A stretch of DNA of 64,000 nt from a virus: positions 1-64,000 of IMG/VR virus record IMGVR_UViG_3300042090_000646; one strand, given 5' to 3'. A program made the translations under genes and the position numbers. Below, one piece after another: positions 4,510 through 10,604 of the stretch. Under the pieces are notes generated by a model that saw only the letters and a program-made list of their open reading frames with translations, ran no database searches and was not told the origin of the DNA. Position 1 is the first letter of the stretch. Every line of letters begins with the position of its first letter.

Positions 4510-7500
4510 CTATGCCGCTTTGTTCTGCGCCGCCCTAGCGCGAATAGCTTTTAGATCCCCCGCTAATCCTGCATCATCCAGGTAGTCGGTGGGGTCCTGA
4601 AAAATCTCGCCCAAGACGCCCTTGTGCTTGACCCGCTCCATGTTGTTTTTTTCCCAGGGCGAGTCCGCCATGAGGGTGATACTCTCCACGTTGTCCTTCT
4701 GCCCCACCCGCCAGATCCGGGCCGTCCGTTGGTTGTGGCACATGGCGGTGGCGGGAAGGTCGTGATGGATCAGGCACTTTCCATGCTGGAGGTTCAGGCC
4801 GGTGGCCCCGGCGTCAGACATCACGATGACGTCTGCCTGGCCGCTGTTGAAGGCGGTCGCCTTCGCCGCCTTGTCCTTGGAGCTGTCCTTGCCAGTGAGG
4901 CTAGTGGCCTTGATCCCGGCCTTTTCCATGGCGGCCTGGATGGCTCTCACGGCCTGGAGGTTGTGGGAAAAGATCACGACGGGCTTGCCCTGGGCGATGC
5001 GCTCCTTGGCGATGCGGACATGTTCCGCCATCTTGCCGCCCTCCGGGTCCAGGTTGATGATCCGGTTCATGGCGGATTCCCGCATGGTGCCGACCGCCTT
5101 GCGGACCCTCTCGGCGATGGCGGCGTGGTCCGCCTCCGGCTTGCCCTCGAAACTCTTGGGCGCCAGGATCCGGGCCCACTTCAGGGCGTCGGGCGCCCCC
5201 GTCCGGAGTTTTCCGGAGGCCAGCTCAACCTGGTCGACGGCGGCCTTCTGCTTGTCGGTGAGCGGGACGTCGAGGTTGCTCTTGTAGCAGTCCTTTCCGG
5301 GGTCCACGCGCCCATTGAACCAGTAGCGGGACAGCTCCTGGGCCATGGACTTCTTGGCCAAAGGGGTGTTGTTCTTGAACCGGCGCAGGAACTCGTCCTT
5401 GGACTCGGGCGGGTAGCGGTGCGGGTCGATCTTGTTCAGGTTGGACCAGACCTCGGAGACATCGTTCTTGAGTGGGTCACCGGTGGCCATGGTGACGTAG
5501 TCCGAATTGTGGGAGTGGGCATCCATGACCTTGGACAGGACGCTGTCCACCTTCCCTTCCCTGTCCAGGGCGCCATGAGCCTCGTCCACCATGAGGGCGT
5601 TGAAGTCGATCCCGGCCTTGGTGAACGCCTCCTTTACGGCAGCGGCGGCCTCCTTCGGAGGGGTGTTCATGAGGAAGTCCCTGGCTCCCTCGGGCCCCTT
5701 CCCCAGGTGGTCGCCCAGGATCTGAAGGGTGTCATCCCGGAGGGTCTGATGGGTCACAACGATGGCGTGTTGGTCCGGGTCTCGGTATGCGGCCAGGCGC
5801 TGCTCGTAGGACTCGCCTGGACGTGCATGGACGTGGAAACCTGTGGACGGGTCCACGAACCGAATAGACTCCGCCCCGAATTGCCCCTGGACGACACTGG
5901 GGACCGCCAGGATGGCCTTCTTTAGCTTGCCGTCGTGGTGCAGGGTGGTCAGGGCGCCCAGCATGATTCCGGTCTTGCCGCTATTGTGATTGACCAAACC
6001 CTGCGCAATATATGTGTGGGAATCTGGAACGGTGATATCGAATACTACCTGGAATCCTGCACTTTCAACAGAAAGGACCGAGACCCATGCCAAAAGGCCG
6101 ACCATGCTCGAAGGTTCTGATTTCAGACGAGGAACTTCGTCGCCTCTATCACGATGTAGGGATGAGTTCGACCCAGATTGGACGGCTGTTTGATGTGGAT
6201 GGCTCAGTGATTCTTTACCACCTGAAGCGTCGTGGGATCCCTCGTCGTGAGCCTTCTGCATGTCTGGGCAAGTTGAATGGGTCCTGGAGGGGGGGGCGCA
6301 TTCTCGACAAGAACGGGTATGTCCTGCTCCATACCCCAAATCACCCCGATGCGAACTCTGGGGGGTATGTCCGGGAACATCGCCTTGTGATGGAGGAGAT
6401 TCTTGGCCGTCGCCTTGGGCCCCAAGAGGTTGTCCCTCATCGGGACGGAGACAAGCAGAACAATTCCCCTGAAAATCTGGAGATATATGGCAAAAACTCT
6501 GACCACCTTCGAGAGGAACTGATGGGACGCATCCCAGAATGGACCCCAGAAGGGCTTGCTCGAATCCGTCAGCATATCCCAGCTCCGATGGTATGGACGC
6601 CAGAGCGTCACGAAGCCGCCCGGCAACGAATGAGGGATCGGTGGGCGAAAGGGAAAATTCCTGGACGGGTATGGACGCCGGAGGAGCGAGAGAAACAGGC
6701 AGAGCGAACCCAGAAGCGGGCACGCAAACCGGATGGATCATTCGAGTGATCTGGTCCAGCGTTTCATCCCGGGTTGTATCGCCCCCTTCGGGGGCACCCA
6801 TGATCCTGGATCCACAGATGAGGTCGCCAGCGTGAACCCATCCTGTCACACCCAGGAATAGGTGGCGTGGGGTCACGAAGATTTCAGACCCGTTGCTGCA
6901 TCTGATCCGGAGCATCTCCTCGTATCCCTTGACGAATACGGGCGAGGCTTTCTGTGTGACGACCTGACCATCCTCAGCCATGGATGCAACGACGGGACGC
7001 TCCCCGCTCAACCACCAGTCAAAGAACGTCCTATCCTGCCCTGTGACCTCGCAATGGAGGCGGGTTCCGCCATAGACGCACCCGGCTCCGTAGAAGAGGC
7101 CCATGCGCTTGAGCTGGGTGATCGCCTTCACCGCCCGCTGCTGAGCGGCATACTTCCCGCTCATGTGGATGCCTTCGTCCACCTTCACGGTTCCCTTACG
7201 CCCGGCGAATGGAGCGGCGGCGGCGGGCATGAGGGAGCGGATCTGGTTCTCCAGGGCGGTTCCCAGGCCGGTGCGCTCCCCGACCTTGGCGGTCTGGAGC
7301 TGGCGTCCGGTGACGTGGTGGTAGTGGTCCGCGAACCCTTCGTTGAGCGTGCCCTTCATCTGTTCCTGGATCGCGCCGAGGGCGCCCTTGGTTCCCTGGT
7401 GGTCCTTCACGAACTGGTCCCAGGCGGTCGGCTTGTCGGCGCTCTCCTTATATTCGGCCTCCAGGGCGGCCCGCTGGGCGCTCCACTTCGTCCATTCCGG

Positions 7501-10434
7501 GCTGTCCCCGGCGTCCCCGTCCTCCGGGGCGATCCCGGCGCCGAGGTTGACCGTGGCAATCTCCGGGTCAATCTTGGGCGGCTCGGGGCCCAGCTTGGAC
7601 AGGGCGGCCTCGAACTTGGCCCGGTGGCTGTCGCCCTGCTGCTGGTGCCAGAAGTCCTTGAGCCCCTGGACGTGGCTATGGGTCAGCTCCCCGACCGGAA
7701 TGTAGGCGGCCTGGAGGCGGGGATCCTGGGCCAGGGCCCGGTGCATTGCCTCATGGAAATTGGGATCCTCTTGCACCCGCTGGCCCTGAAGGGTCTGCCC
7801 GGACTCCTCGGGGTTGGCCTTGAAATAGCCGTCCATCATGGGCGCCAGGTAACCGGCCAGGTCGTCGGCGTTGGCGGCAACTCCGTCCTTGTGCAGGGGG
7901 ACCAGCTCGGCCAGAACCTGGTGCAGGGCCTCCGGGTCGGCGACCTGAGTGGAATAGGCGCTGGCCACGATGTCCTCGGGTCTTTCCCCATCGGCGAGCC
8001 GGGCTCCCATCCAGGTCTTGAGCTTGACCTTCATGGCCTCGGGGCCGTCCCCGTCCTGTATGCCATGCTGCCGCTGGAACTCGGGCAGCTCCAGCTCGGG
8101 GTTGGAGTAGCGGTCGGCGAGCCGGTTGGCGAACCCCGGTGGAATCCAGTTCTCCTCATCCTGCTGGCCACCCTTGATGGACAGGGCCGCCTCCCGCTCG
8201 CCCAGGGCCGCGCAGTCGACCGGATGGATCAGCGCGTCCATGGCTTCGCCTTTGGCGGTCAGGATCGCCTCGCCGTCCTCATGCTCAATGGTGTAGCTGC
8301 CCTCGGGCATCCCCAGGGCGGCGGCGGTGAGGATGGCCTTCTCCGGGGTCATCCGGCCAAGGGGGATGCTCTGCTCGTTCCGGGGGGTGCCCTCGAGGGC
8401 GGCGATCAGGGCGGCGCGGGCTTCCAGGCGCCCCAGGGCGCCCCCCAGCATCCGCCGGGCCTCCTCTAGGGCGCCCACCTTGTTCTTCTGGATCTCGACG
8501 GCGGTGGGGAGGTCGTGGGCCACCTCCACCAACTCCTGGTCGTATTCGGCGGCCTTGGCGCGGAGGGCCTGGGCGTCCTCGGTTACCTTAGGCAATACCT
8601 CCTCCTGCTCCTTGAGATGGTGATGCTCCAGGGCCTCCAGGACCGCTTGCTGGTCCTCATGGCTGAAGTTCTGCCGGATGCCCCTGGCGACGATCTGCGC
8701 GGCGGCCTCCGGCCCCAGGCACTCGACCACGTCCCGGTCGATCAGGCCCTGTCCCAGGGCCGCCAGCCCAACATCGTGGAGGAGGTCGAAGGCCCCGGCC
8801 CCCCGGCTCTGGTGCATCCCTTCCAGTTCATTGCTTTTGAATGGGTCGATCTCGCTGTTCTCTGGCCACCGCTCGCCGACCTCCTCCAGGAATCCCCGGA
8901 CATGGTCGGTCAGGAGCTGTTCGTGGAGGGACTGGACCAGGGCCTCATGCTCGTCCGGGGTGGAGACTGCCATCTGGTAGCCGGGCTCGAAGGTGATCCC
9001 CTTGCGTTTGGCGAGCTGCTCCTTGTAGACGCCCCGGAGGGCCTGGCGGGCCTTCAGGATGCGGGCGTAGTCCTTGTTGGCATCCAGGGCGGCCTTGACC
9101 GCCTCCACGGCGGCGGCGGTCTTCTGCGCGGCCAGCTCCTTGGTCGCCTTGTGAACCTCCATGTTGGCTGCCAGGGCCTCCGGGGTCTGCCCGGCCTTGG
9201 CGCCCTTGGGCGCCTTTCCCAGGAGCGCCCGGACCTCATCCACCTTGGCCATAAGCTTCTCGGTGGTCATCCCGGCCTTGGCCGCCCGCTCCGCCAACTT
9301 CTGGTCATAGCCGGGGCCGCCCTTGGGACCGGCCTCGGCCAGGATCTGTTCCAGGTCCATGGGCGCGGAGGAGCCCACCACAGAGAGCCCTGCGGCACCC
9401 CTGGCCTCGGCGTCCAGCATGACCTTCTTCTCGACGTCGGCGGCGACCTTTTTGGCCTCCCGGAGGAGGGTCCGGTGCAGCTCGGCCTGGGCCTTCGGGT
9501 CCTCGGCCTGGCCGTCCTGGGCGGCCTCGGGGCCCAATGTCTCCTTGATGAAATCCTTCTCGGCCTTTCTGCGCTCCGCCCGGCCGCCCTCGGTGGCCTC
9601 CTTCTCCTTGGCCAGCTCGTCCGGGGTCAGGCTGGCCTTGCGCTTCATTTCTGCCTCGCGCCTCATCTTGGCGTTGGCCTTGGAAGTCTCCTTCCACTTA
9701 GCCGGGTCCAGCTTGTTGAGTCGGAGCCCGTTGAGCTTCCCTTTGGCCCCGCCGATCACCCGCGCAGTTCCATGGCTGCCGGGGATCATGTGGATCAGGA
9801 CCGGGGTGGCCTTGCCGTCGCCGTGGTGCATGGCGATCCAGTGGTCTCCCGGCTGGAGCGGGGGATGGTCTCCGCCCTTGGCGATGGTCCGGGTGGAATT
9901 CTCGTCGGAAAGCCATTCCTTGAATTCATCAATCGAGTGTTCGGCGATAGAGCCCAGCCCGCGCCAGCCCGGAGAGTAGTTGTCCAGGTAGCCACCGGCC
10001 GCCTCGGGCGCGGAGTCCCAGCCAAGCATGACCTTGTGCTCATCAAATTCGCCAGAAGTGGGGTCCACTTGGTTGACGATAAACACGCGGTCGCTAGCCG
10101 TATTGGGGCCGATGAAGACGTCCACCCCATCCCCGTCCGCCCCAATCCGGCGTTCGCAGAATCCGTAATGATTGACCATTCTTACGGACCATTTGGTCCC
10201 GTTTGGATCCACCCCGCTCCGGATACTCCCAGCGGGGTTCTCAATGGCAATGGGGATACCCTGAACGACCAGGTGCCCCCGTTTGCCGCCCTCCCATGGC
10301 TCGGCCTTGGCCGCCTGGGCGTCGATGTCCGGAGAGGTGAATGGCTTGGGCTTGATCTCCGGGAACCACCCCACCGGCATCATCCAGCCGGTCTCTCCGG
10401 TGTCCTGGTCGGTGAAGGCGATGCCGGTGGTCAT
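4510..10434 (-). CDS. Giant phage polyvalent protein: pyrophosphatase-like domain plus SNF2-type helicase, interrupted by an intein
   Basis: 1,974-residue precursor, predicted to be 1,608 residues after splicing. Residues ~50-185 carry ENPAGSIRSGVDPNGTKW, GADGDGVDVFIGP and FDEHKVMLGWDS, matching the inorganic-pyrophosphatase-like domain described in phage polyvalent proteins. A long charged helical region follows (about 230-1110). The helicase begins with Walker A, GAG|SGKT, split by an intein after GAG (residues 1119-1484). It continues with Walker B DEAH (1617-1620), an SAT-like TGDP motif, and SNF2 motifs V/VI (SDAGATGLNLQHG, then QRTARIWRVGQ near 1902). Proteins of this architecture are thought to be packaged and injected with phage DNA; here that is inference. 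GAGG precedes the start. Confidence 0.85.
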   Translation of the reverse strand: MTTGIAFTDQDTGETGWMMPVGWFPEIKPKPFTSPDIDAQAAKAEPWEGGKRGHLVVQGIPIAIENPAGSIRSGVDPNGTKWSVRMVNHYGFCERRIGADGDGVDVFIGPNTASDRVFIVNQVDPTSGEFDEHKVMLGWDSAPEAAGGYLDNYSPGWRGLGSIAEHSIDEFKEWLSDENSTRTIAKGGDHPPLQPGDHWIAMHHGDGKATPVLIHMIPGSHGTARVIGGAKGKLNGLRLNKLDPAKWKETSKANAKMRREAEMKRKASLTPDELAKEKEATEGGRAERRKAEKDFIKETLGPEAAQDGQAEDPKAQAELHRTLLREAKKVAADVEKKVMLDAEARGAAGLSVVGSSAPMDLEQILAEAGPKGGPGYDQKLAERAAKAGMTTEKLMAKVDEVRALLGKAPKGAKAGQTPEALAANMEVHKATKELAAQKTAAAVEAVKAALDANKDYARILKARQALRGVYKEQLAKRKGITFEPGYQMAVSTPDEHEALVQSLHEQLLTDHVRGFLEEVGERWPENSEIDPFKSNELEGMHQSRGAGAFDLLHDVGLAALGQGLIDRDVVECLGPEAAAQIVARGIRQNFSHEDQQAVLEALEHHHLKEQEEVLPKVTEDAQALRAKAAEYDQELVEVAHDLPTAVEIQKNKVGALEEARRMLGGALGRLEARAALIAALEGTPRNEQSIPLGRMTPEKAILTAAALGMPEGSYTIEHEDGEAILTAKGEAMDALIHPVDCAALGEREAALSIKGGQQDEENWIPPGFANRLADRYSNPELELPEFQRQHGIQDGDGPEAMKVKLKTWMGARLADGERPEDIVASAYSTQVADPEALHQVLAELVPLHKDGVAANADDLAGYLAPMMDGYFKANPEESGQTLQGQRVQEDPNFHEAMHRALAQDPRLQAAYIPVGELTHSHVQGLKDFWHQQQGDSHRAKFEAALSKLGPEPPKIDPEIATVNLGAGIAPEDGDAGDSPEWTKWSAQRAALEAEYKESADKPTAWDQFVKDHQGTKGALGAIQEQMKGTLNEGFADHYHHVTGRQLQTAKVGERTGLGTALENQIRSLMPAAAAPFAGRKGTVKVDEGIHMSGKYAAQQRAVKAITQLKRMGLFYGAGCVYGGTRLHCEVTGQDRTFFDWWLSGERPVVASMAEDGQVVTQKASPVFVKGYEEMLRIRCSNGSEIFVTPRHLFLGVTGWVHAGDLICGSRIMGAPEGGDTTRDETLDQITRMIHPVCVPASGFALPVSLAPPASIPVQEFSLSPTDPSFVAGRLRDALASIPSELGYADGFEQALLGSILGCVPSVPLEGGQSFCHISPDFQGNCSACLRPDEGQPLGAQGDGQESPPSQGDVPGHTPQSSHRGDLGYGAGHTRSCRECAPPSRTHSTCPDMQKAHDEGSHDASGGKESLSHPHQTAVQSGSNSSLHRDRGDEVPRLKSEPSSMVGLLAWVSVLSVESAGFQVVFDITVPDSHTYIAQGLVNHNSGKTGIMLGALTTLHHDGKLKKAILAVPSVVQGQFGAESIRFVDPSTGFHVHARPGESYEQRLAAYRDPDQHAIVVTHQTLRDDTLQILGDHLGKGPEGARDFLMNTPPKEAAAAVKEAFTKAGIDFNALMVDEAHGALDREGKVDSVLSKVMDAHSHNSDYVTMATGDPLKNDVSEVWSNLNKIDPHRYPPESKDEFLRRFKNNTPLAKKSMAQELSRYWFNGRVDPGKDCYKSNLDVPLTDKQKAAVDQVELASGKLRTGAPDALKWARILAPKSFEGKPEADHAAIAERVRKAVGTMRESAMNRIINLDPEGGKMAEHVRIAKERIAQGKPVVIFSHNLQAVRAIQAAMEKAGIKATSLTGKDSSKDKAAKATAFNSGQADVIVMSDAGATGLNLQHGKCLIHHDLPATAMCHNQRTARIWRVGQKDNVESITLMADSPWEKNNMERVKHKGVLGEIFQDPTDYLDDAGLAGDLKAIRARAAQNKAA
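6071..6077 (+). promoter_or_regulatory. Ribosome binding site of the antisense HNH gene
   Basis: GAAAGGA lies 9 bases before ATG 6087. It falls within DNA that on the other strand encodes the C-terminal splicing part of the intein, and supports independent translation of the plus-strand gene. I see no convincing promoter between 5986 and 6070. Confidence 0.6.
6087..6749 (+). CDS. HNH homing endonuclease-like protein encoded antisense within the intein
   Basis: 220 aa with its own Shine-Dalgarno. An N-terminal helix-turn-helix (ISDEELRRLYHDVGMSSTQI, residues ~12-50) precedes an HNH core: NGYVLLHTPNHPDANSGGYV, EHRLVMEEILGRRL, PHRDGDKQNNSPENLEIY and a final H140. The C-terminus has three WTPE-type repeats resembling NUMOD DNA-binding modules. 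The fold and order match phage HNH_3 homing endonucleases. The usual HH pair is P117-H118 here; the first His normally helps bind the metal, and a CAT-to-CCT change would explain the proline. The gene lies wholly inside the intein-coding segment, on the opposite strand, where intein endonuclease domains normally sit. Expression and activity are unproven. Confidence 0.85.
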   Translation: MPKGRPCSKVLISDEELRRLYHDVGMSSTQIGRLFDVDGSVILYHLKRRGIPRREPSACLGKLNGSWRGGRILDKNGYVLLHTPNHPDANSGGYVREHRLVMEEILGRRLGPQEVVPHRDGDKQNNSPENLEIYGKNSDHLREELMGRIPEWTPEGLARIRQHIPAPMVWTPERHEAARQRMRDRWAKGKIPGRVWTPEEREKQAERTQKRARKPDGSFE

Positions 10435-10604
10435 GGGTGCCTCAAAAATTAGGCTTGAAAATTCAGGGGGGAGATAGCATCCTTCTGGTCAGGGAACCCG
10501 GCCTGAAGACTAGAAAAACGCCGGGCTGGTCGGGAGGGTCACCCAAGGGTGGCTATTCTATGTGGGGGAGCCGGAGGTCGATCCGGGTTGGCGTCCCACC
10601 AGGT

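Follow-up and report, generated by a model that had tools for sequence, protein, structure and literature searches.

Can an intein be mobile when the endonuclease that would move it is not part of its own protein? This question is raised by a stretch of viral DNA of 64,000 nucleotides (nt), positions 1 to 64,000 of IMG/VR record IMGVR_UViG_3300042090_000646 (hereafter the window), in which an intein splits the Walker A motif of a helicase and an HNH endonuclease gene lies on the opposite strand, between the two splicing halves. In textbook inteins the endonuclease is fused into the splicing protein and thus shares one promoter and one frame with it. Our analyses lead us to the reading, which we hold with good confidence, that the window carries a mobile intein and that a separate, opposite-strand gene encodes its homing endonuclease. 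The complete virus record is 78.6 kb long and encodes contractile-tail genes and a RecT-like annealing protein.

The protein that hosts the intein matches the Pfam profiles InPase (1.5e-46) and Helicase_C (2.3e-13) and the PHROG profile phrog_62, a DNA helicase (2e-49). The initial annotation of this DNA had placed a complete intein (Cys1, TxxH, HN/S) in the helicase Walker A motif at 5983-7080, and these coordinates proved exact: Cys1 is encoded at 7080, block B contains TPRH, and the terminal HN at 5983 is followed by the S of SGKT, so that the C-terminal junction reads GLVNHN/SGKT. The intein scores above the cutoffs of Pfam Intein_splicing (43.1 bits, cutoff 35.8), NCBIfam intein_Nterm (25.1 bits, cutoff 24.5) and NCBIfam intein_Cterm (22.9 bits, cutoff 15.6). 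In an AlphaFold2 (AF2) model both splicing halves are all-beta and confident, with a predicted local distance difference test score (pLDDT) of 85-98, and the middle is mostly below 65. The features of the intein and its host gene are as follows.

4510..10434, minus strand: host gene (open reading frame, ORF), 1974 amino acids (aa), with an N-terminal InPase-type domain, a C-terminal SNF2-type helicase and an intein splitting Walker A.
7081..7089, minus strand: end of the N-extein, GAG, the left half of the insertion site (sequence, orthologue comparison).
5983..7080, minus strand: complete intein, 366 aa, Cys1 to HN/S, flanked by GAG and SGKT of the P-loop (translation, Pfam/NCBIfam, intein-free orthologues, AF2 model).
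6781..7080, minus strand: N-terminal splicing half, residues 1-100, blocks A, N2 and B with TPRH (IntN profile match at 6793-7080, E 6.5e-20; pLDDT 85-98).
6091..6780, minus strand: filler of the intein frame, mostly the antisense translation of the HNH gene (pLDDT 35-64, predicted to be largely disordered).
5983..6090, minus strand: C-terminal splicing half, residues 331-366, blocks F and G (IntC profile match at 5971-6099, E 3.9e-16; pLDDT 95-98).
5971..5982, minus strand: start of the C-extein, SGKT, the right half of the insertion site in Walker A (sequence, orthologue comparison).

The comparison of empty and filled helicase alleles that had been suggested at the outset supports these boundaries. 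Three intein-free orthologues (L094-L096; C-extein identity of 84, 73, and 66%) read GAG/SGKT or GPG/SGKT, and given that their P-loop is uninterrupted, the insertion in the window is exact. The window intein lacks a canonical in-frame endonuclease domain between blocks B and F, the HNH gene sitting on the opposite strand, and it is not a split intein, as the precursor is one continuous ORF. A group I or group II intron with an antisense endonuclease was also considered and rejected for the window, as an Rfam scan of 5500-7500 at E<=1 returned no match to a catalytic intron RNA.

The same annotation had described the plus-strand ORF opposite the inter-block region as an HNH gene with its own ribosome site, and profile searches bear this out (HNH_3, 33.2 bits, cutoff 24.8; phrog_10730, HNH endonuclease, 3e-27). 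The AF2 model of its product has a mean pLDDT of 84, and its best match in the PDB is the phage HNH homing endonuclease I-HmuI (1u3e; probability 0.99, with a modest E-value of 0.07), with which it has the VV-D/H-H motif in common. Synonymous recoding of this gene introduces a mean of 5.2 stops into the intein frame and leaves it free of stops in 0.3% of shuffles; the open antisense frame at the window is more than chance. The plus-strand features are the following.

6072..6077, plus strand: Shine-Dalgarno-like AAAGGA, 9 nt ahead of the HNH ATG (sequence).
6087..6749, plus strand: HNH endonuclease gene, 220 aa, with an N-terminal helix-turn-helix-like region, an HNH_3 core and a charged C-terminal tail (profiles, AF2 model).
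6435..6440, plus strand: HNH residues P117-H118; H118 is the presumed general base and P117 stands in place of the H/D metal ligand (alignment of 47 HNH proteins, alignment with I-HmuI).

A search of metagenomes for further inteins of this kind, also suggested initially, revealed a widespread lineage and not a single curiosity. Searching IMG/VR with the window HNH protein returned 80 loci; in the 38 best and 2 lower-ranked of these, the HNH gene lies antisense within an open frame of 601-1063 aa, and this frame is an intein that interrupts a P-loop gene. A search with an HNH alignment returned at least 552 confirmed relatives, and among the best 80 of them the antisense-in-intein layout was found in 68 of 71 new loci. 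With 46 full loci from two further scans, which also added 4 partial ones, both splicing halves flank the HNH gene in one open frame at a minimum of 159 loci (113 + 46). Cys1 and the block B His are invariant among 39 aligned inteins, and HN followed by S, T or C is found family-wide. The relative phase is identical at every locus tested, codon position 1 facing position 1 and HNH position 3 facing intein position 2. The host genes encode terminase large subunits, SMC/RecF-like AAA_23 proteins, DEAD/ResIII helicases, AAA_24, AAA_33 and TraD/HerA-like proteins and, in a split form, an AAA+ protein; across these families the insertion is always at the P-loop. The window shares the defining features of the lineage, namely an antisense HNH gene between IntN and IntC, the fixed phase and the P-loop site. 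The GC content of the at least 159 inteins spans 35-69%. An initial caution that GC-richness had made the open antisense frame possible is not needed, since divergent loci numbering well over a hundred share the layout, and many of these have a GC content of 40-50%.

Cultured phages also carry the layout. Full reading of the sequence places it in Pectobacterium phages Ymer, Sabo and Koroua, and the same HNH match alone assigns it to Pectobacterium phages Abuela, Amona, Taid and Pappous; it is also found in Dickeya phage Setonix, Pseudoalteromonas phage PHS3 and one Opitutae metagenome-assembled genome. Current annotation hides these inteins. The records of the cultured Pectobacterium phages give only a 'hypothetical protein', and the PHS3 record (L091:2661-4639) shows an HNH gene beside a terminase that is truncated where the intein lies, although the minus strand actually has an open frame across both. 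Among the records opened for other cultured HNH matches (Mycobacterium, Gordonia, Pseudomonas, Halobacterium and one uncultured phage), the HNH gene is co-directional with its neighbors or the record is unannotated.

We assessed selection on the two strands in a panel of 47 HNH genes. The panel was grouped by open frame; given that none of the 38 top-ranked relatives is missing from it, antisense openness is not a product of how the panel was chosen. In the best-matching part of these genes the intein frame contains 0 stops versus 194.7 expected under synonymous codon shuffling, and the two other antisense phases of the same genes have stops near expectation. As a control, 39 free-standing HNH genes have 254 antisense stops versus 275.5 expected. 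Amino-acid identity is higher in the HNH frame than in the antisense frame in 1030 of 1030 distant pairs (averages of 0.38 versus 0.18). Substitutions in the overlap, counted in 35 disjoint pairs, fall at HNH codon position 3 (2321) far more than at position 2 (769), and all 35 pairs agree in direction; the splicing blocks on either side instead have their excess at the third position of the intein codons. This change of frame between the overlap and the splicing blocks indicates that the selected strand switches at the block boundaries. These comparisons indicate that both strands are real genes, and that the conserved product of the overlap is the HNH protein, the intein frame there mainly having to stay open. 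The codon-position GC of the filler in the window is likewise atypical for the minus frame. The proposal that the overlap encodes splicing-protein filler on one strand and HNH on the other thus stands, with a disordered filler and substitutions that follow the HNH frame.

Placement and expression signals were examined in 110 complete inteins (65 clusters when grouped at 70% nucleotide identity). In these the HNH gene starts at a median of 125 nt (interquartile range 119-131) inside the C end of the intein, just past the C-terminal splicing block, and Shine-Dalgarno-like cores precede 45 of the 110 starts (control rate 0.21). Over the 159 nt that precede the start on the HNH strand, a sigma-70-like signal is present at p<0.05 in 22 of 65 loci versus 3.2 expected (Fisher 9e-13), the null being synonymous recoding with the local codon pool; no such enrichment was found in three controls, namely the same region on the other strand, the intein N block and the C-extein. 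A comparison against extein windows was set aside as confounded by local AT content, and the synonymous-recoding controls were used instead. The strongest promoter-like sites end 6-57 nt ahead of the HNH ATG and are therefore located inside the intein. This statistical signal suggests that many family members have an internal antisense promoter from which the HNH gene would be transcribed.

Alleles of closely related genes were compared in two terminase families, retrieved with the C-extein as the sole query. They comprise 119 empty alleles, 22 antisense-HNH inteins, 3 mini-inteins and 16 that are unresolved or cut. One full allele (L271), one unrelated mini-intein (L272) and one empty allele (L273) have 97% of their C-extein DNA in common, and Escherichia phage KW1E_UTAR provides an exact empty counterpart of the Ymer terminase site. 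The mini-intein L313 aligns with the L025 intein at residues 1-98 (82%) and 282-315 (94%), the HNH part being gone; by this alignment L313 is an antisense-HNH intein with its HNH gene deleted. The initial annotation had named loss of HNH from an intact intein as grounds for rejecting the arrangement. Such loss does occur, as L313 indicates; however, it is a minority state, HNH being absent from 3 of 25 inteins at the two terminase sites, and it is consistent with the homing cycle that a mobile element goes through. The three mini-inteins (L313, L272 and L352; 131-136 aa) sit at the same terminase P-loop site, and L272 comes from another lineage. Spread over unrelated P-loop genes together with presence and absence in closely related genes is what homing predicts, and we infer homing from it. 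A target-site logo from 52 junctions showed no readable recognition sequence, because its conservation is explained by the P-loop codons, whose third positions carry little information.

Several points weigh against a mobile intein with an antisense homing endonuclease, in particular for the window copy. Position 117, encoded at 6435-6437, is Pro only in the window HNH protein, being His in 39 and Asp in 7 of the other 46 panel members, so that the window enzyme departs from the H/D metal ligand of HNH homing endonucleases. P117 aligns with the Asp of the I-HmuI VVDH motif, which we take to be a metal ligand of that enzyme, itself intron-encoded on the sense strand. Promoter scans of the window found no sigma-70-like signal for its HNH gene, and the promoter consensus used throughout is of the E. 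coli type, which may not be that of most hosts. Mini-inteins without HNH at the same sites imply that persistence does not require the HNH gene. The evidence as a whole consists of sequence comparison, statistics and predicted models.

The first two of these points, P117 and the missing promoter signal, suggest that the window enzyme is weakened or dead. The HNH gene of the window could accordingly be a real but decaying passenger, the intein splicing, the endonuclease dead and its DNA kept only for the open precursor frame, a situation that the HNH-deleted mini-intein shows to have a parallel in the family. We regard this as a serious possibility of somewhat less than even probability. It is countered by the other invariant HNH motif residues, which are intact, by the full-length ORF with its Shine-Dalgarno-like site and by a codon-position GC that fits the HNH frame; moreover, the substitution pattern shows that it does not hold for the whole family, and it is compatible with the reading of the family as mobile inteins with antisense endonuclease genes. 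Of the putative homing enzyme first proposed, then, the HNH fold, motif and I-HmuI match stand, and the window copy may be inactive or impaired, a family member whose endonuclease has begun to decay.

Instead of a single origin, the layout could have had several, with free-standing HNH genes inserting in antisense orientation into different mini-inteins; we consider this unlikely, with a chance that is nonetheless appreciable. In its favor, the HNH gene has cousins that stand free, unrelated mini-inteins occur at the same site, the deep branches of our HNH tree are unresolved, and the antisense label needs at least 5 changes on it. That tree is too short for deep branching, and one branch (L100) is suspiciously long, its core window probably being misplaced. 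However, the same label needs 30 changes when shuffled and is thus strongly clustered, the placement of the HNH gene is nearly constant, and a single relative phase is kept throughout even though another phase could dodge stops more easily by synonymous choice.

Co-option of the HNH product or of an antisense transcript for regulation instead of homing, for example to damp the host gene, appears improbable. The promoter-like signal inside the intein does face the antisense strand of the host gene, so that antisense interference is possible; however, patchy presence at closely related loci and spread over unrelated P-loop genes are typical of mobility and not of fixed regulation. We give very little credence to the filler being a functional domain of which the HNH ORF is merely the shadow: the minus frame is nearly always open, but the filler of the window has no domain match in Pfam, NCBIfam or PHROG scans and a low pLDDT, the HNH motif residues are invariant, and both the identity in every distant pair and the substitutions in all 35 pairs contradict it. 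A chance ORF in GC-rich DNA, for which one could cite further long plus-strand ORFs opposite the same helicase, has a negligible probability and is refuted by the profile matches, by the fixed phase across the whole GC range of the family, by the missing stops and by free-standing HNH genes, which lack flanking inteins and hardly ever face a long open antisense frame.

Returning to the reading of a mobile intein with an opposite-strand endonuclease gene, we propose that the minus-strand precursor would be translated straight through the intein, that the N and C splicing halves would come together as a Hint fold from which the antisense-encoded filler loops out, and that the intein would excise and restore the P-loop ATPase; the motifs, fold and empty alleles are observed, and splicing is expected from knowledge of the family. 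The plus-strand HNH gene would be transcribed independently, in many members from a sigma-70-like promoter within the DNA for the C-terminal splicing block, and its own start would serve for translation. The coexistence of empty, full and mini alleles suggests that the HNH protein would cleave intein-free Walker A DNA and that recombination would then copy in the whole cassette.

Two loci extend this layout to split inteins. In the AAA+ gene of L125 (L125:2796-4802), an antisense HNH gene lies between IntN and IntC and the filler contains stops; the C half begins with an ATG that follows AAAGAGG, and the HNH gene nearby on the other strand starts from its own AGGAG site. In L099 (L099:2-4484), a helicase with the same insertion site as the window, a stop follows the N half and the sequence ends at the contig edge, making this a probable split intein. 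The HNH tree places both close to the window, with modest support. Given that an antisense endonuclease is independent of the filler frame, a frame break and a new start would produce a split intein and leave the endonuclease unharmed. These two cases suggest that the antisense layout is a route to split inteins and links them to continuous inteins.

The element resembles canonical endonuclease-bearing inteins in its Hint domain, its site in a conserved ATPase motif, the endonuclease information between blocks B and F and the patchy alleles. It differs in the endonuclease, which is encoded by a gene apart on the other strand, has a start of its own and is often accompanied by a promoter-like signal; the element thus appears to work like a mobile intein while departing from the canonical in-frame endonuclease. 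Dassa et al. 2009 reportedly described fractured genes with split inteins and separate endonuclease genes, of another nuclease family. An endonuclease gene between splicing halves is common to those and to our loci, L125 being so arranged with an antisense HNH gene; in contrast, the precursor stays in one piece in the window and in at least 159 relatives.

The TerL1-a/b P-loop inteins of mycobacteriophage terminases occupy the same Walker A neighborhood of the terminase large subunit, and the text of their description does not mention an antisense endonuclease (Kelley et al. 2016, PMC5050341). The ShiLan domain is a 'hidden' out-of-frame HNH on the same strand, without a splicing domain or a detectable ribosome binding site (Arsenault, Gosselin and Gogarten 2025, PMC11855218). 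Like the present genes it lies within an insertion that keeps the host frame open, but the present HNH genes are antisense and inside true inteins, and the window does not fit the ShiLan definition. In Porphyra rDNA group I introns a homing endonuclease gene of the His-Cys box type lies on the complementary strand (PMC2585584) and is thus, as here, antisense to the element that carries it. Unlike our inteins, these are RNA introns outside protein-coding sequence, so that no double-coding constraint applies there, and the window region has no Rfam match of this kind. A full-text literature search found no antisense endonuclease within an intein; a prior description may be contained in the 2025 preprint bioRxiv 10.1101/2025.01.02.630785 about actinobacteriophage inteins of 'non-canonical architecture', to which PMC11855218 refers in the context of overlapping frames.

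These results suggest that two overlapping genes of opposite direction, instead of one fused protein, can make up a mobile intein and its endonuclease, a layout that cultured phages and well over a hundred loci have in common. They also show long antisense double coding with selection acting on each strand. The antisense gene would give the endonuclease its own expression control. For a broader claim we see an even chance: that this is a globally distributed P-loop intein lineage with an autonomous antisense homing endonuclease gene, whose own promoter inside the splicing-domain DNA uncouples expression, and hence an undescribed architecture intermediate between one-piece and split inteins.

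Some minor observations concern the host genes and neighboring loci. In the window, three very long plus-strand ORFs lie opposite the helicase beyond the HNH gene (4624-5925, 6862-8469 and 8515-10452) and are probably composition artefacts. The InPase-type pyrophosphatase domain precedes the SNF2-type helicase by well over 1000 residues in one phage protein, a long fusion that is common to L094-L096. The minus-strand terminase ORF of L038 has an apparent second intein-like insertion ahead of DEEC (Walker B), downstream of the first intein. Finally, L240:5245-7500, which stood out by an intein match on the sense strand, encodes a radical SAM protein with its own intein, which bears an in-frame HNH-like stretch, beside a free-standing HNH gene.
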